In this document: positions 43,718 through 57,287 of the stretch, in pieces
Layout of the letters: each line of letters starts with the position of its first letter
Position numbering within the stretch: the first letter of the stretch is position 1
Source of the DNA: Trebouxia sp. TZW2008
Taxonomy: Eukaryota > Chlorophyta > Trebouxiophyceae > Trebouxiales > Trebouxiaceae
Assembly: GCA_002118135.1 (NCBI GenBank)
Contig: BDIU01000235.1
Coordinates: 62,001-126,000, forward strand
Length of the DNA: 64,000 nt
Direction: 5' to 3'
The notes under the pieces: generated by a model
Database searches by the model: none
Told to the model about the DNA's origin: nothing
What the model saw: only the letters and a program-made list of their open reading frames with translations
Position numbers and translations under genes: made by a program

Positions 43718-46700
43718 CTACCATGGGATAGCTTCATGCTTGTAATCATACCATTTTCCATTAAGCGGCAGATCACTTTCCAAAACTGACAGCAGCCCTG
43801 ACACACTTTGGTCAACATTGATCAAGCCATTGCCATTTGTCATGTCAGTCCTGACATAGCCTGGGTGGAGAAGGACACATGTCACACCATCGCCTTCCAG
43901 ATCAATGGACATGGACTTGTTCACTGCAGAGCATCCACTCAAGTGTTTGTCTTGACTGACAACAAGCAAGTAGACCAAAGATGTTGTATGCCATGGGCGT
44001 CATGCGTCGAGGAGTTCTCAATCCACAGTCCCAATAAGTTTGATAAGGCAACAAGTATCTCAGATTGTCAGGTCATGGCAATCTGATGCATCAGGTGGAA
44101 GGAATGCTGAGGGAAAAAAAAGGTTGCTGCCAAGTCAGAAGAAGACATGCAGAGGACCTGAATGCTCACAAACACTGAGCCACAAACACAAGCATGACAA
44201 CTACTAGTCAAGGGGAGACATCCAATGCAACTGCATCCAGCCCAAATGCAAAAGTTGTCACTGTAAAACATGCAGCCGATGTCATGATAGCCAATTAAGC
44301 CCAGTAAAGGTGTGCATCAGCATCAGTAGCATGCTTGCCATTGTTGAGTGCCGACTTGGAAGCTCTGTATGCATAAGACCCTCCGGAGCCATTGTCTTCA
44401 ACTGAGCCAACCTGCAAAGCACACAAGCTGTCAGAACAGACCTGGCTGGCCCTAGCACTGCTGCATGCACATTGAAGCCGCACAGCCCATCACTGTGCAT
44501 AGCACCCTGTTTATGTAGCAAAAGAGCTGCTGATGACACGGGCATCAATGCTAGCAAGGTGAGAAATGTCATGCGAGCAAAAGACAGGTGCCCAAGAAAG
44601 CCTCCCATTGGCATTGCAGAACACAGCATCACGCACAGAGGCAGGTCATTATGATACAAGAGGGCAAGACATTTCCAGTTGACAGACATTTGTGCAGCGA
44701 AAGCTGAGAAGGAGCAGTGGTGAAGGTGAAGCACGCATTGAAAATTGTGCAAGACTGCCTGCCTTTGAGGTAAAATTGCCAACAATGGCCAGCTTGCCAC
44801 AAAACATAACACATGCTGAGAGGCACAAATACATGCGCACCGGGAAGTGTGACAGAAGTTCAAGAGCAGCATGTGAGGGACAGAGGCTGCCTACCTTTGA
44901 GGTCGTATTGCCCACTAGATAGCCCAGCTTGCCATATCCAAAAGCCACACGCATGTCAGATGCATACACTCATGCGCAAAAAGAGGTGTGAGAGAAGTTC
45001 AACAGCAGTACATGTGAGGGACGAAGGTTGCCTGCCTTGAGATGTTGAGAAACCAAAAGCCTGTTCGGAGGCATACACACATGCATGAGGGGAAGTAGGA
45101 AGAGAACTATAGGAGCACTAAAAATGCAGCATACAGGCTGCCTGCCTTTCAGGTGACATTGCCCACCACGGAGCACGTCTTGCCCAGTCCATAAGCCACA
45201 CACATGTCGATATGAATACATTCATGCTGACTGGGTTGAGATCACCCAAAGCAATCAGTGTGAAGGACGCAGGCAATAGGAAGTTCTGCTTGCTGGATCC
45301 ATGGATGCGTAGGGTGATGCTCAGTAGGAAATGGGATTCCAAATGCAAAAGCAGTGAAGGTTGCAGGCTGCCTGCCTTTGAGGTGACATTGCCCACTAGG
45401 GAGCCCGGCTTGCCAATCAGCTTGTTCCTCAACAGCTGCTGCACCACCAGCAGAGGCCCTATTGTGTTAGCCTGGTATGTGAACAGCATGTCTTCAGCAG
45501 TCACTGTCTCCAGGCTAATCTGAGGTCCATATACACCGGCATTGTTAATGACTACCTGCAAAAGCAAAGTCTGACGTTGCAACTTGAATGTCTTGGGTTG
45601 AGAACTGCTTACTTTGCCCTTGTGTGTCAACAGCATGATGCGCATAGCAGCGCAACATGGACGCAAGCGGGCGCTGTCAAAGTAGTCACAAGCTGACCAA
45701 CCACGCTCACAGAATGACCAAATCACATGCTCGTCAGTGACTCCGTTACAGCCTGAAGACAGGACGTTGATATGGGTCTTCAGCACAATATTGCTCAGCT
45801 CATAAATGTTTTCTGACAGCAGCCCAAATGTAGGTATGCATGCTTTGCAACATTCAGATGGCTGGTGCAGACTACAGTAACAACTCTTTGTTAGGACACT
45901 TGGTGTAAGGACAATCTTGATGTAAGGGCAATGCCATTGGTAACCAATCACTGCATTCTGACTGCAGTGGTCCCTCTGAGTAAGAACAATATCATGTAAA
46001 GGCATTTTTCTGGGTACCCAAAGCAGTCATTACAAAGAGAGCTTACTTCAGGAGTAAGCAAGTAAGGGCTTACATCAATGTGCTTGGTGTGCCCGGCCAA
46101 CTCTTTGGCCCAAGCCTGCATTCGGCAATAGTGTAATGCAAGTGAACCTCATCTGACATTTCATCTGCATGCATTGACAAACAGAACTACCATTGCATGT
46201 GTGTACAAGACAAGACTAGTACAAATACTGCTGTTGTCACTAGCTTAGATTTGGCAGATGGCTGTAGAGTGTATGCAGCACTGATAAATTTGATTCACCA
46301 ATACACCATGGCCTGGGGGATGAGACATTTGCAACACATGCTGGCATGCATGCACAAGGGTGACTACAACGCGTCAGTTGAATCTGGATGGCCACGTGAC
46401 CATGGACTTGGCATGCAGACTTGATCTTGCTGTCATGCTTTGAATGCTGCGTGTTACATGATTGTCTGCTGTGTTCACTTGAACAAGGTTGCATGTACTG
46501 CTGAGCGCCCTGAGTGGCATTTCATGCTTAGTCATGCCATTCTGTGTGCAAGGCCATACCTCAATTGATGCTGGATCTGAGACATCTAGCTTGACAACAT
46601 GGGCCACACCAACTTTGTTCAGCTCAGCTGCATCAGCAGGGTTCCGGCAACTTGCTATGACTGTGTTGCCCTTTGCCAAAAGCTGCTTGGTCCACTGCAA

Positions 46701-47038
46701 AGCAGCAGTTGAGGACACTCAGCAACAGCAAATGCAGATGATGCCATCGCACCCCAATTAGATAAGCATGTCAGATTTTCTGTGACAGGCAGCAGGCCAA
46801 ATCTTGCTCAGCGTCTTTTGATATCGGGCAAGGGTGCACTTACCCAGCAGCAAATCAGGCAAACACAACACTACGATTCACTCACAGACAAATCTTTGGA
46901 CCACTGCATAGCGTTTCAGGCAGGCAGCAAAATTTACTATTAGCAAGCAACAGAGGTGTCATGCCTTGCCTCCAGACCAAGGCCTCTGTTTGCTCCTGTG
47001 ACAAGCACAGTCTTGTCTCGTATTGCTGAGCCAGCCAT
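43718..47038 (-). CDS. Short-chain dehydrogenase/reductase (classical SDR)
   Basis: Six exons on the minus strand, 47038-46970, 46694-46560, 46115-46074, 45555-45376, 44411-44339 and 43923-43718, give 234 residues, close to the usual SDR length. The Rossmann cofactor site is TGANRGLG (14-21), the structural motif INNAG (85-89), and the active site Y157-x-x-x-K161 in SYAYRASKSALN, with Ser141 or Ser145 as the likely third residue. The ending GVTCVLLHPGYVRTDMTN is typical of C-factor-like SDRs. The substrate is unknown; NADP is not proven. Introns 1, 4 and 5 all start with GC (GAG|GCAAGG, AAG|GCAGGC, ATG|GCAAGC); phase and homology both demand these donors. Intron 3 holds a MITE-like element and intron 4 an array of copies of the exon 4 end. 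Confidence 0.9.
44560..45430. repeat. Tandem array of exon 4 3' ends in SDR intron 4
   Basis: The last 50-60 bases of exon 4 plus donor (minus strand, ...GGCAATGTCACCTCAAAG|GCAGGC) recur at about 45130-45190, 44880-44935 and 44735-44800, with decayed traces near 45020 and 44580. Flanking words such as GAAGTTCAACAGCAGTACATGTGAGGG also repeat, giving units of roughly 95-240 bp. The copy at 44880-44935 carries a GT donor (AAAG|GTAGGC) where the true exon has GC. Confidence 0.75.
45874..46048. mobile_element. 175-bp MITE-like element, copy 3
   Basis: In reverse orientation to copy 1. Shared words include TGCTTTGGGTACC, GCAGTCAGAATGCAGTGATTGG, CCTTACATCAAGA-TGTCCTTACACCAAGTGTCC and AACAAAGAG near the end. 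It lies in intron 3 of the SDR gene, about 25 nt from the 5' splice site. Confidence 0.75.
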
Positions 47039-48027
47039 CACAGCAAGTCTAGAAGAGCGAGGTGGGCAACCTGCAAAAGTGCCATGCTAGCATTTTGCGA
47101 GCAGACACGGGACGAAAATTGTTCTGCTCACGGCCGTTGTTGCCTGCTGCTGACCTGCAGAGATGCTCCGTCCTCCACGAACTTTTGCGCAAGAAAACGG
47201 AACCCTGCATAGAGCGTGATCGGTCCGGTGCAGAGCTCGGTGATGGCCTAGGCACAGGCCTGTGCAAGCTGACCCAGGGTTCGCAGCGGCAGGAGCAGTT
47301 GTAGAGCGCAGAGACAACCCATTTTGGTCAAATTGGCCACCTTGTGAACTGCTGTCGAGCAAGCATTCCCCGCACGAGCTATCCTCTAGTCAGGTCAGGA
47401 AGCTCCGAGTTGCCAAGTAGGCGAGCAAAGCTGTCGCCGGCTGCGGTGTCTGCGGAACGATTGGCCGCGAGGAGTCGACCTCTGACGTACTGCACAAGTG
47501 CAACAATGCTGCGTTTGCACTCGTCCAACAGAAGTCACCTGTCGTTATCCAGTTCATACGCAACTTATTGTGCGGCGTTGTTGGAAGTGGCTGCGACGAA
47601 ATCCCGACCCGATGTCACATTTGGCAAATTTGGTCAGAACCCCAGTGCGAAATCAATTTAAAGGGGTGACATTTGTGTCACATTTTTCGAGCCGCTTCAA
47701 TTGGGGAATTGATTCAAGCGGAGGTTGAAGCAGCGGGCTAACACCCTTTACACAGCGCCACCTGTGGCGTAGCCAACCCCAGCCGCTCCCATCGACTGCG
47801 TCACCTTTGTGCCCTGTTTAATTTGTTGCTCCTGCGGCATTGCTCGGCATCAACGCTTGTCGGGGAGCAGGACCGCAAACAGAGGCAGCGACCGCATTAC
47901 GCAAAGACATTTCAGCTGCAGCTGCCTACAGCACCTCTGCAAGCAATAGGTCTTCAAGGACAAATTTGGCGACATTCTTGGGCGCATAAGCTAATGCAGC
48001 GGTGATTGCGATTGTCGGTCACGCAGT
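47039..48027. other. Divergent intergenic region (989 bp)
   Basis: Between the SDR start (minus) and the GT2-GH9 fusion start (plus). It is more GC-rich than the flanks, as expected for shared promoter sequence. Open frames at 47062-47304 and 47344-47661 (plus) and 47087-47362 (minus) overlap each other and show no family features. Confidence 0.5.
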
Positions 48028-51000
48028 ATGGCTGATCAGTACGAGCACGCCCGGACACATAGTGCAGAGTCCTACGAGTCAGGCTCAGGCCCTTCAAGTC
48101 AAGCTAGCACCCTGCCTGGTGGTCATGTCTATAGTCATCAGCAGGCCGGTGGCAGATCAGCGTACGACGACTACAGCCAAGACGACTTGGTACGGCGAGT
48201 CAGCTTCCGTTTAAATCGCCATCTGGCCCCTTCAGCACATACTGCTAGCGCTTTGCAAGCAGCACACTTGTTTCATATGATTGATTTTATACGTGTGTGT
48301 ACTGCAGGATAGCCGTCAGCCCAGTTTCATCCACAAGAAAGGGGGAGACAACGTAGGCACCTTGGCAAGGTAGGCTTCAGTTTGGCGCTACCTCTGTGCG
48401 CACTGTTCTCACATTGCAGTAGCAGAATTTGAGGTTTGCGGGAACAATGCGCAGATTGGTAGAAGCACTTGAAGACTACGAGGGTGGCGATCCAGATGCA
48501 TACTCTGATGTATCTGCTGAAAACTCCCTTTTGTCTGGCGGTCACAAGCGGCGGGTGAGCATCGTCTTTTCCATCGCTGCCTACAGCAGAATAGCTGTGA
48601 TATTGCTGTGCAAGCTGCACATTGCATGCGCTTGTGTTGAGCTTGCAGGATGCTATTTGTAGTTGTTCCAAGCATAGCAGCCTGCTACAAATTGTGCTTT
48701 CACATGCTCTTTCCTGGAAATTGTGGGAATGCATTACACAGAGCTCTCACCATACGTCGGACTTGTGAACAGCTTGCTCGCCAAGACAGACAAGCAATTT
48801 GGGTGCACAGCCTGCTGCTCTGGGCTGGCGCGCTGTGCACACGGCCTGACTTGTATGTCTCCAATAGCTTGTGGAGTTCACACTCACAGGGGCACCTCAA
48901 GGCTCATACAAATTCCAAAACAAGTTGCAACATACGTACGTTGGCGTGCGACATGTTCTGTATAGTGATGAACTGTGTGAGGTGCCTATGCTGCTGGGAA
49001 TTTTGATCTGACCCACCTTCACAATGCTAGGGCAAAGCTGCATCTCTGCAGACTGTACGGCCAATGCTTTGTGTTCTGACCCAGCCATTGTTGAGAGTGC
49101 TGGGAGGAAGCAGCTGCATTTTTGCAGACTGTCTCAGCCATGCAATGCATTCTGACTCGATGGCTGTTGAGACTGCTGGTATAAGGCTGCACTTTTGCAG
49201 ACTGTACTACTTTGAGTCAGCCAACGTTGCCACTCCTGTGAGGAAAGTGCGTCTTTGCAAACTGTGCTACCTGTGCACAGCTTCTGAGCTTGCCTCTCTT
49301 TGGTGCAGATCACCTCCTCCCTGCTTGAGTCAGACTTCCCGATGCCTCACAAGCCCCGCAAAGGGGTGCCTTTCTATGATGAGGAGACAGAGGAAGAGTC
49401 GTATTGTGCAGCTCCTTTCAACATGAATGCTCATGACGTTGAGGCACCTTTGCCAACATCTTTCACTGAAGACGGGGAGGAAGCAACAGGTACTCACTTG
49501 GTGTTGCAAGCACAGCTCACTTATGGCTTCATGCATTCATGCTCTAAACGCATGCAAGGCATGCCTGCTGCTGAGCACCATCAGCAAGGACTCAATGTCT
49601 TGCTGATGGCATGTTCTCTTCTATTTTCTCTTGCGGAGCATGTCGTCTCAGAGCATTGCAACTGCAACTATCTCACAGCAGTGTTGTCCACTAGCTTCTG
49701 CCTAGCTTTTTGGGCACTCCAAGTAGGGCAAACTGACAATGGGGGCCTCGTATTGCTGCAGGCCCAGGCACACCTACCAAGTTCAAGAGAGGCAGAAAGT
49801 TCAGCTTGCACGGCTGCCTAGTCACCTTCCTCTACTTGTGTGCTTTCGGCTTCTATCTGTACGTCCGTATTGCCAAGACACTAGACCTGGGCAGCTACGT
49901 CTGGTATGGAGTGATAGTGTTGGTTGTGGAGCTTGCTGGTGCCACCACAACACTGGTGTGGTGCCTCAATATCATCATGGACCCTGTACATGAGCCCCTC
50001 AGAATGGATCCTGATAACCCAGGCCTGACTCTGGTACGTATGCGTCTTGCTTACCTCGTCATCAACACTGAAGCTGTCTTCAAGCATTGATTCCTCTTTA
50101 TTTGTGCGCATTGCATGCTAGTCACTGCTGCTTGCTGCCCTGTACACGTGTCTTCTAGTTACAGGTGTTCAAGTGTTTGTGGCAAAGCTGGCTGTCAACT
50201 CTAAGACTTCGGTATTGCTGCTCAAACCAGCAGGTTTGCTGTTCACCTGCATTGTCAAAAAGCTTGCCAGAACCTGCAAAATTAAGGACTCAAGCCTAGG
50301 AATCTCAGGGGACTACAGCCTAAATAGCAGCAAACTGAGAAACTTTGTCTGTGTGCAGACTGCAAGGCGGTATCATGTGCGGGTGCTCATACCCTGCTAC
50401 AATGAGTCTCTGGAGATTGTTGGCAAGACTGCTATGGCTGCATTGGATGCCATGATGCCAGCTGGCTGTGAGCGCACTGTCTACATCTGTGATGATGGCA
50501 AAGACGCTGCAAAGCGCAAGTGGTGAGTCCTGTTCCTCTTCTGCTGTTCCATGCGTTCTTACAGCCATTTGCTATCTTACGCTGTTTCACATCCATGTGA
50601 CAGACGCCAGACAGCTGTTAAAGGCAAGCATCGGACATTGTCCCGAGCGCTTGTGGTTGCAGCAGACTTTGTGACACTTTTTCAGTTGATTGCATTCTGA
50701 AACGCTTCATACCAAGCACAATAGCAACCATATTTGTTAGCACATAGGCTAGGTGTGTGTGTTTTGCCAGGCTGTGTTGTCAGCATCACAGCAGGGACGT
50801 GTGATGTTCATCTGATGTTCATCTGCTTAGTGTTAGACAATTCAATGTCACACTGGATATCTGAATGTATGCATTTAGGCACTCAGCATGTGCTTGGCTG
50901 GCTGCAGGGCTCGTCAGATGGGTTCAGACCTGGTTTATGTGTCAGGCCGCAAGCGCGCACCTGGTGAGATGAATGGGAAGTCTTGCAACCTGAACAACTG

Positions 51001-54000
51001 CCTGAAGCAGGTTTACCCCGAAGGCGTTCCCATTCCAATCACTGAGCTCGTCTGCATCTTTGATGCTGATCAGGTACAAACAACTTGCAATGTCAGCAGT
51101 CTTGCCTGTTACAAATTGCAAACTCGGGCTGCTTTGCATCTTTGATGCTGATCAGGTGCAAACATTCGCAATGGCATCACTTTTGCTGTGCCTGCCTGTT
51201 TTCAGTGCCTTGCGAAGCAAGACGCTTACCAGGTGCAAAAAGCTGCAGTGCTGCCAGTTTTGCTGTGCCTGCTTGTTTTTGAGTTGCGAAACTTGAACTT
51301 GTGAAGCAAAATGCTGACCAGGTACAAAAGCCCCAGTGCTATTGGTCTTGCTGCTCTTTTCTGTGTGACGTCACAAACTGTGACCTTGCAAGATGTTGGA
51401 AACTTGTGATTATTGTGGTAGTGTGCTGTATAAAGATTGTGGTTATTGTGTGCGTGTGATCTATGAGCGTTACATGCAACATATGAGGTGATTTCTGATC
51501 ATGCTGGTTCATTGCCATGAGTTGTTGCTTCGAGTGCTTTCTGACACAGCAAGTTCATTGCGCAGTGGATTGCTGCTGTTTGCTTTGGTGGCAACGCTCA
51601 GCTGCTGCATGCTGCTGACAATAACTTTGTGACTCTGCACAGGTCGCCAATATGGATTTCTTCACCAAGATGATCCCCCTCTTTGATGCTGGCGATGATG
51701 TTGGCATGGTGCTGTCCCCCCAGTGCTTCCACAACGTCAATGTTGGAGCAGACATCTTCAACCATTGCAACATCAACTTCTGGGAGTATGCACAGCATGG
51801 ATATGACGCCTTTGGCTTCATTTCCTGCACTGGTACCAACTTTCTCACAAGATCAGTGGCCTTTGAACAGTCTGGCTGGTCACCTGAGTACACTTTGACA
51901 GAGGATTACGCCCTTGGCATGGAGTTGACCAAGCGTAAGTGGGCCTGCCGATATGTGGAAGAGTATTTGGCTATTGGTGAAGCTCCAGAGCAAGTGCGTA
52001 ACTGCTTCCAGCAGAGGTCACGTTGGTGCAAGGTGAGTCTGTGATCTTCTTCTTTGACATTGCCTTGCCTAGTGTTGCCACACATATGTTATTACATGCA
52101 TGGAATTTGATCACTCAATTGCATTGGGCTGGTTTCTTTTGGCATCTGGCTGAACTCATGGTGTACATGGTCTTTCTTTCTGCTGCCTGCGAGTGCTTGC
52201 ACACTGACCAATAGTACGCAGTGCTGCATGCTCCTACTGCAACATGTAGCACTGCAAGGCTAAGGCTTCTACCACAGTGTGCTGTAGCGTCGCGGAGTAA
52301 ATGTTTGGTGAGAATTGTTATTGACTGAGCATGCGCTGTTGTGCAGGGTCACTTCCAAATTGTGCTAAACAACGACCACTGCCCCCTCTTCCAGAAGGAC
52401 CTAAGCTGGTTCCAGCGTCTCATGTACTGCTCTGGTGTGTGGGCCTACATTGTGGGAGCCATCACCACTCCCATGTTTATTGTCATCCCCCTGGTAAGTG
52501 CTGAAGTTTGCTGCCCATGCTACTTTGTTGTGGCTGTGTTCTGCATCAGCATTTTCAAGCTTGTCGACTGTATGCATTTTCATGGAGACTTCCCTGGTGA
52601 GTTACACATCTTGCTGCCTGTGCTGTCAACAATGCTATGTTCAGGGTCAGCATGTTGTTCCTTGCATGCGTGCAGGCACAGGTGTCGAAACAGTCAATAA
52701 ATGATCTAGCTTGCCTAACAATTGCATTGCTGAAGCGGATTATCTGCTGTCGCAGGTCACAGTGTGGGCTGGTGTGTTTCCCATTGTGGTGTCCTGGTGG
52801 GCAGCTGTTGCCTTAACTGCCTTCATCACAGCTCAGACCCTGGTCACCAGTTACTGCAGAAACCGCAAGCACTTCAAGCCACTGTGGTTCAACAGCGTCT
52901 CTAACAATATCCTTTGGTTCACCTTTGTCAAGGTGAGCCCCTGTTGTGCTGCCTGCACCTGCATGCAGTTTCTGGGTTATTCAACTCACCAAGGGTCCCC
53001 AAGGCCCCATTGTGGCCTGCTTGAAAGCTTTTACACTGTACCTGTCAAGGATTAAGCGGCAAATCTGCTGCTGCTACTATAGTTCCTCATTCTATGGTAG
53101 CCAGCTCAGTGCGTCAGTTTCCCATGGCTTGTCTCTCACATGCCATCAATATCTCTGTTGTTCACAATCTGACTTGGGCAGCATGCCTTGGGTTCTTGGA
53201 AAGTGCTGATGTTGAGTGATATGCAGGGTTGCTGGCGTGCCCTGGGTGCATCCTTTGGAAAGTCCATCACCTTCAAGACCACCCTGAAAGGAAACAACAT
53301 GCTGATGAAGAACGGTTTAGGAGACTTGTGGATGCCTTGCCTCTGCTTCTTGGGCCTGTTGGCCTCCCTGGGCTTTGGCTTGCACAAGGTGATTACAGAA
53401 TTCCTCATTTCCAGAACTCAATTGCTTGATTTCCTTCAGACATGAAAGTACATGCCCTGCACCATAACATTGATTGACAGCAGAAACTGCATTCAGATGC
53501 TGCTCTGGGCTTTACCTTGCACAAGGGTGACTAGGCTCCTTTGCATTACCTCAAGCTGACATCAACTGCTGTTGACTCTGACTGCATCTGTCAGCTTCAT
53601 GTTCTGCATGATGGGTTGCCCGGGTCTTGTCAGAGCTGTCAAGAGCATTCAGAGGTGGCCCTTCATCAAATTTTCTTGCACTCATCTCTGGGTCATATCG
53701 TGCTTCACCAATGCAGACCACTGTTGTTGCAGCTAGCATCAGTCCGTCGTTAACTGTGCCCTCTTGTCAAGCCAGGGCTGCACACGGTCGTGCCTGATCA
53801 CCGCAATGTTCATGTTGAATGCAATGTTGGAATGTGCAGGTCATCACGCAAGGCAGCGGTGTGATCACCACTCTGACTTTGTCCCTGGTGTGGATTGTGT
53901 ACTCCATCATTCCACAGTACCTGCTGCTGCACTACACCTGGGTGGGCAGAGGCACCACCCTTAGATACGCCTGCCAGCTGGGATTCTACATCTCATCCCT

Positions 54001-57000
54001 GTGTGGAGTGTGCGCCATCATTCTGTTGTGGCTTGTCTACCCCAAGACGGTGAGCACACACATCATATCTTTGTTTGCAGGCTGACATGACTGTGTATGA
54101 AAGCACATCATGCTTTTGCATATCACAGACGTTTTGTCTCTGCTGCTCTGCTCAGCAACTGGTGATGCCATCTGTACAGACAGGTTTTGGCTGTTGTCCT
54201 TCTGATGGCAGTTGTGTATCAGGCAACAAGTAGGCAAAGATATAAATCACATGAGCTTGTTCTGTCAAAACCTGCATCACAATATTTAGCCTGTCAGCTC
54301 CCCAAGATTGTCCTGACTGCATTCACAACAAGCCAGTTCAGAGCTGTATTGCTTTTGAAAGCTGCAACATTATCTGCAGCTGTTGGGTCATGTCAGCAGT
54401 CGTTGGCATTTGATCTGAATTGGCATTGCTGTTGCTGCAGTACAACTACGGGTCACGTCAGCAGTCGTTGGGACTTGTTTTCAGTTGTCGTTGCTGTTGC
54501 TGCAGTACAACTACGGCACCATGCTGACCAACTCCCACCAGTTCTACCGATCCCAGTGGATTGGAGCACTTCCAGATGGCTATGACATCCCTTGGAGGCA
54601 AAACGCTTTCACCACAGATGTTGGGCCGCCCACATTGAACTGGGGAGACATGTCTGGTGGCATCATGGAGGGTAGAGAAGCAGGTAATGCTCAAAATACT
54701 GCTTGTGGTACTGTAATGCATTCTGGTGGTACAGTGCATTCAGCATAGATGTTGGGCCGTGCACACACATTGAGCTGGGGTGACATATCTGGAGGCATTA
54801 TGGAGGGTAGAGAAGCAGGTGTTGCACATCTCTCTGCAGATTGCAGCATCAATGAAAAGCTGGTTGCCATTCACACGGCTTCTTGTGGGTCTCCTCATCT
54901 TGCATTGGAACATTGTGCAGTACCTTGTATCTTGCATGGGGAGCTTGTGATGTATCAACAGTCCTGTCATACGCACTACAGCTGTTGAATTGCCTGACGT
55001 TGCAAAGCTGCAACTAGCCTGTAGGGCTGTACATGCTTGCTTTGCTTTTGCACCACTGCTGCCTGGAGCACCAGCGCCACCATCATCAGTTGTAGGTACA
55101 ATTGTTCTTGGTACATACTTTCACACGAGTGATGCATTTTGCAGGTTCTCTGAAGATCACACCCACCATTGCATGGAGCACTGCCATGTTGGCTTGGGGC
55201 ATGCTGAGCTTTGGGGAGGGCTACAACAAGTCCAGTGCCTGGGAGACCGGCATGCAGACTCTGAGGTGGAACACTGACTACCTGCTGAAGACCATCAAGG
55301 ACGACCCCGACAGCACAGCCCTCTCCATGGGCAGTGAAGGGGGTGGTCCAGAGTATTTCATTGTGTATCAGGTGAGCTGGCAAGTGCTTTGAGCGAACAT
55401 TCATTTGCATTTGCATTGAATGTGTATACACTGGCTTGCAGCAAGTTTGCCAACCATAGCAGCAAAACCTTGCTGTCCATGCTCATGAGCAGCAGAACCT
55501 CACTCCCTGTGTTCACGAGTTGTTGCTATGGGAAGCCTGTTTGCGTTTTGAATTTAGCATTTCAGATGTCAGGTCCTGTACACAGCAACCGAGTCTGCTA
55601 GCTTCCTTGCTGGTGCAGTGCATGTTTGGCTGTGTGTGTGCCCTCTGTGCCGCACATCCGTGCTTGAGAATGACACTGCTATTGCTCTGCAGCTCGGAAA
55701 TGAGACATTGGAGAAGGCTACTTGGACAAGGCCTGAGGACGAGCAGCAGACCGATCGTCCAGCGTACTACACGACCACCTACAACGGAACCTCTGATCTG
55801 GCGGGTCAGATCTCTGCTGCATTTGCGTCCACGGCCATGATCTTCCGAGACTCCGACCCAATCTACTACAATAAGTTGATGAACTACTCTACACTTGTGT
55901 ACGCTGCTGGCGCCCGCAACAGGCGTGGTTACACCGCCGAGTTCCTGTACCCTTGCGCCGAAGATGCAGACAGCACAGACGTTGTTAAGACGGGCACTCC
56001 CAAGTGTTTGCCCGGGGATGAAATGTTCTCTGGCGCCATGATTGCAACTTACAACAGCACCAGCTACCTGGACGATCTGACCTGGGCAGCTGCCTGGCTG
56101 AATATGGCCACTGGAGATCCTGCTTACAGGGATGACGCCTACAGGCAAGATTCTGCTTTCTAATGCAAAGAGCTGATGCATGCTGCAGCTTCATGAGCAT
56201 TCTTGCAGCAGCGCTCATGTCTTTTGCTGACACCACTGCATTGATCTCTGCTGCTTTGTCTACGTTCATTTGAGTATTGTGTCTAATCAGTGCTGACAAA
56301 GCAGGAAAGGACATGCCATGTGCTGTAAGCAAGTGATGACTGCTCATCTACATCTTGACAAGGCTCAGATTTGAACATCTGACCATGCGCCATGCATATG
56401 GGGCAGTAGTTGCTCATGGCCAGTCTTGCTTGCTGATCATGATCAAGTGCAGTGTTATTCTATGCCTTCTGGAGAGCTGTACAGTCAATGTGTAAAGGCA
56501 GATCTCCTCTAAGACATTCTATGTTTGCAGGTGGTTCAACCTACATGCAAATTCAGCAGAAGCCAGCTACGACACAGAGTACATCTCAGACTGGAATCAG
56601 CTCATTTGGCCATCCACAGTGTTGCTGGCCAACATCACAGATGACACAGCCTTCCATTACCGTATCCAGCAGTACCTGCGTAACTGGCTGTGTACCTCTG
56701 GTAACACCATTGAGTACTCCAAGATGGGCCGTGCCTTCAACACAAATGATGCCTCCCTAGCTCAAGGCATGAACTCAGCTTTCTTAGCCCTCATCTACGC
56801 CCAGATGGTGCAAGACTCAGAGGCAAACATTGAGGCAGACAGATACACCAACCCCAATTATGCCAGGCGGTATCTGTGCTGGGCTCAAGCGCAAGCTAGG
56901 TACATTTTGGGGGATGACACACGCAGCTTCTTCGTTGGAGTTGACAATGACCCTCCCAAGCACATCTATGACAGAGCGTCTTCCTGCCCCAAGAACAACC

Positions 57001-57287
57001 AGACACAGTGCAATGCACTCAACTCGTTGTACACTCCCCAGCCGAACCCAAACATCCCTACTGGGGCACTTGTCTACGGCCCTGGCCTCAATGGTGACTA
57101 TTTTGTTGACCAAAGGTCAACGTCCAATGAGACATATGTCTCCCACGAGTGGAATGCTGGTATTACCGGCACCTTTGCTGGTCTGAACCAGTTGGTCTCT
57201 GGTAACAGCGGTTATGACCAGTGTCTACAAGGTTATGGTGTGCTGAGCAAGACCATCTCAATCTGTAATGACGGAGCAGTTGCGTAG
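48028..57287 (+). CDS. Cellulose-synthase-like GT2 fused to a GH9 endoglucanase domain
   Basis: Sixteen exons: 48028-48189, 48308-48352, 48426-48554, 49309-49489, 49762-50033, 50359-50522, 50908-51073, 51643-52032, 52347-52493, 52756-52932, 53227-53388, 53840-54049, 54506-54683, 55145-55371, 55693-56144 and 56531-57287; 1272 residues. Residues 1-170 are polar and probably disordered; two spans follow (about 189-240). The GT2 domain (264-520) has ICDDG (D308/D309), FDADQ (D370/D372), TLTED (D461) and FQQRSRW (Q497..R500-W501): the processive glucan-synthase set. About five more spans (510-735) follow, then a GH9 domain (736-1272) with AWGMLSFGEGY, RWNTDYLLK, WTRPED, YILGDD, GDYFVDQR and VSHEWNAGITGTFAG. 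No PilZ or RING domain is seen. Intron 15 has a GC donor. Likely product: a beta-glucan such as cellulose at the plasma membrane; this is inferred from motifs. Confidence 0.85.
49015..49300 (+). repeat. Tandem repeat (about 75-80 bp, four copies) in GT2-GH9 intron 3
   Basis: The words GCTGCATCTCTGCAGACTGTACGGCCAATGC / GCTGCATTTTTGCAGACTGTCTCAGCCATGC / GCTGCACTTTTGCAGACTGTACTACTTTG / GTGCGTCTTTGCAAACTGTGCTACC recur. Each copy has its own TGCAG and so offers a decoy 3' splice site upstream of exon 4 (49309). Confidence 0.7.
51055..51345 (+). repeat. Tandem copies of exon 7 end plus donor in GT2-GH9 intron 7
   Basis: The true exon end TTTGATGCTGATCAG|GTACAA (donor after 51073) is followed by TTTGATGCTGATCAG|GTGCAA (after 51155), GACGCTTACCAG|GTGCAA (after 51232) and AATGCTGACCAG|GTACAA (after 51321). 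The period is 77-89 bp and identity decays with distance. The exon end encodes the catalytic DxD. Confidence 0.75.
54385..54516 (+). repeat. 65-bp tandem duplication across the exon 13 acceptor
   Basis: Two adjacent units, each beginning GGGTCAYGTCAGCAGTCGTTGG and ending TTGCTGCAG|TACAACTAC, put a copy of the 3' splice site and first three codons of exon 13 just upstream (acceptor at 54440) of the true one (54505). Confidence 0.8.
54731..54820 (+). repeat. Copy of exon 13 3' half and donor
   Basis: GATGTTGGGCCG...GGGGTGACATATCTGGAGGCATTATGGAGGGTAGAGAAGCAG|GTGTTG repeats the true exon end (about 54616-54683) 135 bp downstream in intron 13. A small insertion breaks the frame. Confidence 0.75.

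Follow-up and report, generated by a model that had tools for sequence, protein, structure and literature searches.

A fused GT2-GH9 protein of Trebouxia and other green algae in which the catalytic residues of GH9 cellulases are missing

The window analyzed here is a 64,000-nucleotide stretch of the genome of the green alga Trebouxia sp. TZW2008 (GenBank assembly GCA_002118135.1, contig BDIU01000235.1, positions 62,001 to 126,000 of the forward strand), in which one plus-strand gene of sixteen exons occupies positions 48028-57287, its exons joining in frame between a start codon (ATG) at 48028 and a stop codon whose last base is 57287. Its product is predicted to be a membrane-embedded glucan synthase of family GT2 that carries a domain of family GH9 at its C-terminus. 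All splice sites are of the GT-AG type, with the sole exception of a GC-AG intron after exon 15 (GC donor at 56145). The original prediction, made from the sequence alone, described a single-polypeptide GT2-GH9 fusion of 1272 residues; its sixteen in-phase exons hold. Our working model, which uses the exon 3 acceptor at 48434, has 1,275 residues and provides all residue numbers given below, and a later acceptor at 48455, which fits the Trebouxia homologue P0001, gives 1,268 residues. The features of the gene are as follows.

48028..48189, plus strand: exon 1, start codon and N-terminal cytosolic tail (N-terminus agrees with P0001)
48308..48369, plus strand: exon 2, joined in frame
48455..48554, plus strand: exon 3 (acceptor favoured by P0001; alternative 48434 in the 1,275-residue model)
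49309..49489, plus strand: exon 4
49762..50033, plus strand: exon 5, membrane spans one and two (hydropathy scan)
50359..50522, plus strand: exon 6, GT2 catalytic domain with DDG motif (Pfam, motif count)
50908..51073, plus strand: exon 7, GT2 DAD motif (Pfam, motif count)
51643..52032, plus strand: exon 8, GT2 TED and QxxRW motifs (Pfam, motif count)
52347..52493, plus strand: exon 9, membrane region (hydropathy scan)
52756..52932, plus strand: exon 10, membrane region (hydropathy scan)
53227..53388, plus strand: exon 11, membrane region (hydropathy scan)
53840..54049, plus strand: exon 12, last membrane spans (hydropathy scan)
53981-54037, plus strand: last membrane span, residues about 716-734, ending about 5 residues ahead of the GH9 domain
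54050..54505, plus strand: junction intron, phase 0
54506..54683, plus strand: exon 13, start of the GH9 domain (Pfam)
54656..54683, plus strand: altered catalytic-Asp motif GGIMEGREAG (GGxxDAGD in GH9 cellulases), with E793 at the first Asp position (D1; codon 54668-54670)
55145..55371, plus strand: exon 14, GH9
55693..56144, plus strand: exon 15, GH9, followed by the GC donor
56531..57287, plus strand: exon 16, end of GH9 and stop codon
57135..57137, plus strand: codon at the general-acid position, Tyr1226 in place of Glu, in the context SNETYVSHEWNAG

The two exons that flank the junction, 53840-54049 and 54506-54683, and the phase 0 intron between them are exactly as originally given. If exon 12 is left unspliced, read-through reaches a stop shortly past the donor, and the GH9 part has no ATG of its own near its start, the frame that enters the GH9 exon being free of ATG between 54419 and that exon. 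A Pfam search for GT2 plus Glyco_hydro_9, proposed with the original prediction, found both domains in one chain: GT2 models match at residues 273-506 and 369-569, and Glyco_hydro_9 matches at residues 741-1238 (E 2.6e-69; 235.1 bits against a curated cut-off of 27.7) over positions 1-443 of a 444-position profile.

Scoring in the protein searches was confined to the 8,000 (7,999) candidates that share most words with the query, so that the tallies below count the matches listed and not what exists in nature. Among the 85 sequences compared (84 database proteins and the window protein), 56 match both the GT2 and GH9 parts at E <= 1e-4, some of them across a small part of GH9 only, and 29 lack one of the two domains; at least nine further proteins with both Pfam labels (P0085-P0093) were found among the best 120 of 156 matches. 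The best match among the candidates scored is P0001 of Trebouxia sp. C0010, with 80% identity over the searched part, 93% over GT2 and 68% over GH9 in the same domain order, an agreement with both parts in order that, judged by alignment, is not a matter of chance. Named sources of fusions include Trebouxia, Coccomyxa, Myrmecia, Elliptochloris, Apatococcus, Symbiochloris, Botryococcus, Auxenochlorella, Chlorella and Micractinium as well as Tetradesmus, Raphidocelis, Monoraphidium, Haematococcus and Chlamydomonas species. Thus the architecture, for which a search in other trebouxiophyte genomes had been suggested, recurs in both Trebouxiophyceae and Chlorophyceae and is not special to this genome. 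Going by their type of name, the fused entries P0042, P0085 and P0086 appear to be open reading frames from transcript assemblies. Four entries listed with GT2 only (P0048, P0051, P0052 and P0053) stop within the first residues of the GH9 start and, because their ends fall there, look like truncated models of the fusion.

A scan of the same genome (68.5 Mb in 527 contigs) found GT2 followed by GH9, in the same order and on the same strand, on contigs C254, C96 (two loci) and C199. In the paralogues on C254 and C96 (345-355 kb), the last membrane span and the start of GH9 are encoded by a single exon that crosses the joint, and the intron sits a few codons inside GH9 rather than at the joint; the case for the fusion therefore goes beyond splice prediction. 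Together with the in-frame exons, the Pfam matches and P0001, these exons establish the single-polypeptide fusion. Other fusions of a synthase with a hydrolase were also seen by Pfam: P0188 has GH8 ahead of GT2 and PilZ, P0146 has GT2 and then GH5, and the precomputed labels of P0186 are identical to those of P0146.

Two further observations concern the surroundings of the exons. Within the intron after exon 13, positions 54766-54820 hold a 55-base copy (91%) of the end of exon 13 with the same GAAGCAG/GT endpoint, which might have arisen by tandem duplication or might be used as an alternative exon. Upstream of the gene, the minus-strand open frames at 45118-47086 resemble a short-chain dehydrogenase (motif VLVTGANRGLG).

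The synthase part retains what a processive GT2 enzyme is expected to need. As originally predicted, the full motif set (D, DxD, TED and QxxRW) is present in the window protein, and it is nearly invariant in the family. For residue counts we used an alignment of 64 rows, 62 with GT2 and two with a fasciclin domain (P0040 and P0041), from which P0024, P0038 and P0046 were left out, their GH9 pieces being under 351 residues. Among the scorable rows of the 62, the D is kept in 45/45, the two Asp of DAD in 48/48 and 48/49, the residues of TED in 55/56, 55/56 and 56/56, and those of QxxRW in 59/59, 59/59 and 58/59. About seven membrane spans had been predicted, and a hydropathy scan and the seven long helices in the structure model of a Coccomyxa relative, which were used for the count rather than a dedicated topology program, agree. 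The GT2 part has a cellulose synthase fold with a membrane channel, and the C-terminal part has a GH9 barrel fold that is retained in a relative. BcsA is the best match of the GT2 part in the PDB by sequence and among the best by fold. The model has no Pfam match to PilZ (PF07238) up to E 0.01 and none to GH6, the C-terminal domain being GH9. In a scan of P0001 and four other relatives, none reached the 699.1-bit cut-off of TIGR03030, the equivalog model of bacterial CelA/BcsA (146.7 bits for P0001, 140.3-155.7 for the others). The gene product would be a processive beta-glucan synthase, most likely a cellulose synthase of the bacterial and tunicate-like GT2 type, and by similarity its product would be a beta-1,4-glucan.

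GH9 cellulases use an Asp pair in the motif GGxxDAGD and a Glu general acid in the motif NE[VP]. The two bacterial reference rows, P0064 and P0066, show both motifs, as does the alignment with the GH9 enzyme of Eisenia. In the window protein, the first is replaced by GGIMEGREAG and the general-acid position is occupied by Tyr1226; misalignment at the latter was considered and rejected, as the PDB alignment to the Eisenia enzyme and the multiple alignments place the same Tyr there. The acid position can be scored in 58 of the 64 rows, the other six being gapped, and none of the 58 has Glu (Arg in 29, Trp in 8, Thr in 5, Gln in 4, Ala in 4 and other residues in 8). Both catalytic Asp are kept in only two of the 64 rows, P0054 and P0056, each with Arg at the acid position. 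For instance, P0003 of Coccomyxa subellipsoidea has T at D1 and W at the acid position, and the translations of the four GT2-linked paralogues of this genome read without the acid. A two-residue insert complicates the DAGD region: HMMER sets E796 against the second Asp and MAFFT sets G798, so that the window protein has E/G at the Asp pair in the multiple alignment and E/E without the gap, and Asp-pair counts are accordingly given both ways.

Both bacterial references keep the acid Glu, as do four stand-alone GH9 loci of the same genome. All four stand-alone loci with a C-terminal match (three on contig C266 and one on C451) read NEVA, and they show GGWYDAG at an exon end, where an intron splits the DAGD motif, the second Asp being shown in one of the four. 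At least three of the NEVA loci are clustered at 79788-116161 of C266, together with a fragment that contains a stop. In chlorophycean stand-alone GH9 proteins, the catalytic acids are described as strictly conserved in the part of the source available to us (PMC6032398). In the same family rows in which the GH9 catalytic residues are lost, those of the synthase have hardly changed (45/45 to 58/59). With the acid absent in 58/58 rows and the Asp pair kept in only 2/64, hydrolysis by the known GH9 mechanism appears unlikely across the family, and the coupling of synthesis to trimming that the original prediction envisaged is not sustained. The physical coupling that it also proposed is supported, with the GH9 part predicted on the outer face.

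As read from the alignment, the loss is patterned and not ragged. Asn at -3 and Ser or Thr at -1 of the acid position occur together in 33/58 rows, which makes an N-glycosylation site beside the former acid possible. The Trp of DHxYW (64/64), the Asp of DELxW (62/62) and the Tyr of YYxS (56/62) are kept. The same altered GH9 also lies behind a fasciclin domain instead of GT2 in P0040 and P0041, both of Trebouxia (Pfam scan of P0040).

For the history of the fusion, GT2 and GH9 trees were built from 39 algal sequences (38 chosen proteins and the window protein) with outgroups. Sequences with Trebouxiophyceae names form one group of 25 rows (support 90 in the GT2 tree and 99 in the GH9 tree), and those with Chlorophyceae names form one group of 14 rows (support 90 and a weak 73, respectively). 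Because the two trees agree, they suggest a single fusion that predates the split between the two classes. Since the Asp pair survives without the Glu in P0054 and P0056, the general acid was probably lost first, before the Asp pair, although few sequences bear on this order.

Based on these results, we propose, with moderate confidence, that the protein is a cellulose-type synthase with seven spans whose complete GH9 (alpha/alpha) barrel, attached to the last span at its outer end, is non-hydrolytic and holds or guides the emerging glucan. According to its motifs and fold, the synthase would extrude a beta-1,4-glucan; the topology would place the barrel on the outer side of the membrane, close to where the channel opens; and a barrel without the acid would not cut. 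The least certain step is the last, in which the barrel would hold or guide the newly extruded glucan or fix the synthase to it. Several observations weigh against this proposal. Two acidic residues stand at the ungapped Asp-pair positions in 5/63 rows, including the window protein (Glu/Glu), and the residue at -2 from the acid position is acidic in 22/58 rows, again including the window protein (Glu), so that a displaced mechanism may operate in it. A binding role is weakened by the loss of several other cleft residues: 3/64 rows keep the His of DHxYW, 0/59 keep the Arg of LRYS and 9/61 keep the Trp of GLAW. Divergence is also faster in the GH9 part than in the GT2 part (68 versus 93% identity to P0001), and in the window protein alone the sequon count of 8 is a weak excess over the 6.07 expected.

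The loss of both the catalytic and several cleft residues while fold-level residues stay is also what would be seen if the GH9 part had given up contact with the glucan and served as a structural or trafficking module for oligomer contact, folding or wall anchoring. Its occurrence behind fasciclin in P0040 and P0041 points the same way, whereas the retention of the Trp of DHxYW and of most Tyr of YYxS speaks against it; we regard such a module as a minor but serious possibility. The trimming of the chain by an active endoglucanase, as originally envisaged, would have to proceed through displaced acidic residues and is rather improbable. The Glu/Glu of the window protein and the acidic residue at -2 in 22/58 rows could serve it, and in plants the GH9 enzyme KORRIGAN acts with CesA. 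Yet neither Glu nor Asp occurs at the acid position in any of the 58 scored rows, in 35 of these the two places on either side of it hold no acidic residue either, 58/63 rows lack an acidic pair at the ungapped Asp positions, and in many rows the acidic residue at -2 falls on the x of an N-x-S/T sequon. That a GT2 gene and an adjacent GH9 gene were wrongly joined, as the intron at the junction of this gene and the 29/85 one-domain entries might hint, can be dismissed as very improbable in view of the two paralogues in which one exon spans the joint, the transcript-like fused reading frames, the same domain order in many genera and the GT2-only entries that look truncated.

For plants and bacteria alike, the question of why the making of cellulose needs a cellulase is still open. 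A synthase and a cellulase-shaped domain in one chain, with the cutting residues gone and the barrel kept, separates cutting from holding, and if the barrel of the algal protein holds the chain, the same idea becomes testable for plant KORRIGAN and tunicate CesA. The residues also give a warning for annotation, since database entries of this family carry the labels cellulase or six-hairpin glycosidase, which the residues do not support.

Among known systems, bacterial BcsA is the top PDB sequence match of the algal GT2 part; its partner BcsZ is a GH8 enzyme and a separate protein, and the algal protein has no PilZ match at the threshold given above. In plants, a GH9 protein likewise stands beside cellulose synthase, but KORRIGAN works with CesA as a separate and active enzyme. 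The algal GT2 domain, moreover, is placed on a different branch from land-plant CesA, and is called highly similar to the tunicate synthase domain, in the passages available of the Coccomyxa subellipsoidea C-169 genome paper (PMC3446292, 2012). Those passages already report the GT2-GH9 architecture, of which the original prediction knew no description; they treat the fused domain as a cellulase domain and are silent on its catalytic residues. The Coccomyxa protein is of the same architecture and the same green-algal class: P0003 aligns over both parts (73% over GT2 and 44% over GH9), and what is added here is that it lacks the catalytic residues. The passages found in the open-access literature searched, which largely leaves subscription papers uncovered, contain no statement of such a loss in fused GH9 proteins; while the architecture is known, the family-wide loss of hydrolase residues is the part without a counterpart in them.

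The nearest parallel is tunicate CesA, in which, according to the portions seen of two reports, the fused C-terminal GH6 domain has lost a catalytic Asp while the stand-alone GH6-1 keeps it, and for which the authors suggest a new function of the GH6 domain (PMC7464555, PMC10334666). The contrast between stand-alone and fused domains recurs here with GH9; tunicate CesA differs in having GH6 instead of GH9 and in its animal lineage, and the likeness of the algal and tunicate synthases rests on the passages seen of PMC3446292. We tentatively suggest, with somewhat less than even confidence, that at least twice, in tunicates with GH6 and in green algae with GH9, a cellulose synthase captured a cellulase that lost its catalytic residues and kept its barrel as a non-cutting chain handler at the outer end of the synthase; in the algae, this would be an old trait shared by Trebouxiophyceae and Chlorophyceae, in which the acid was lost before the Asp pair.
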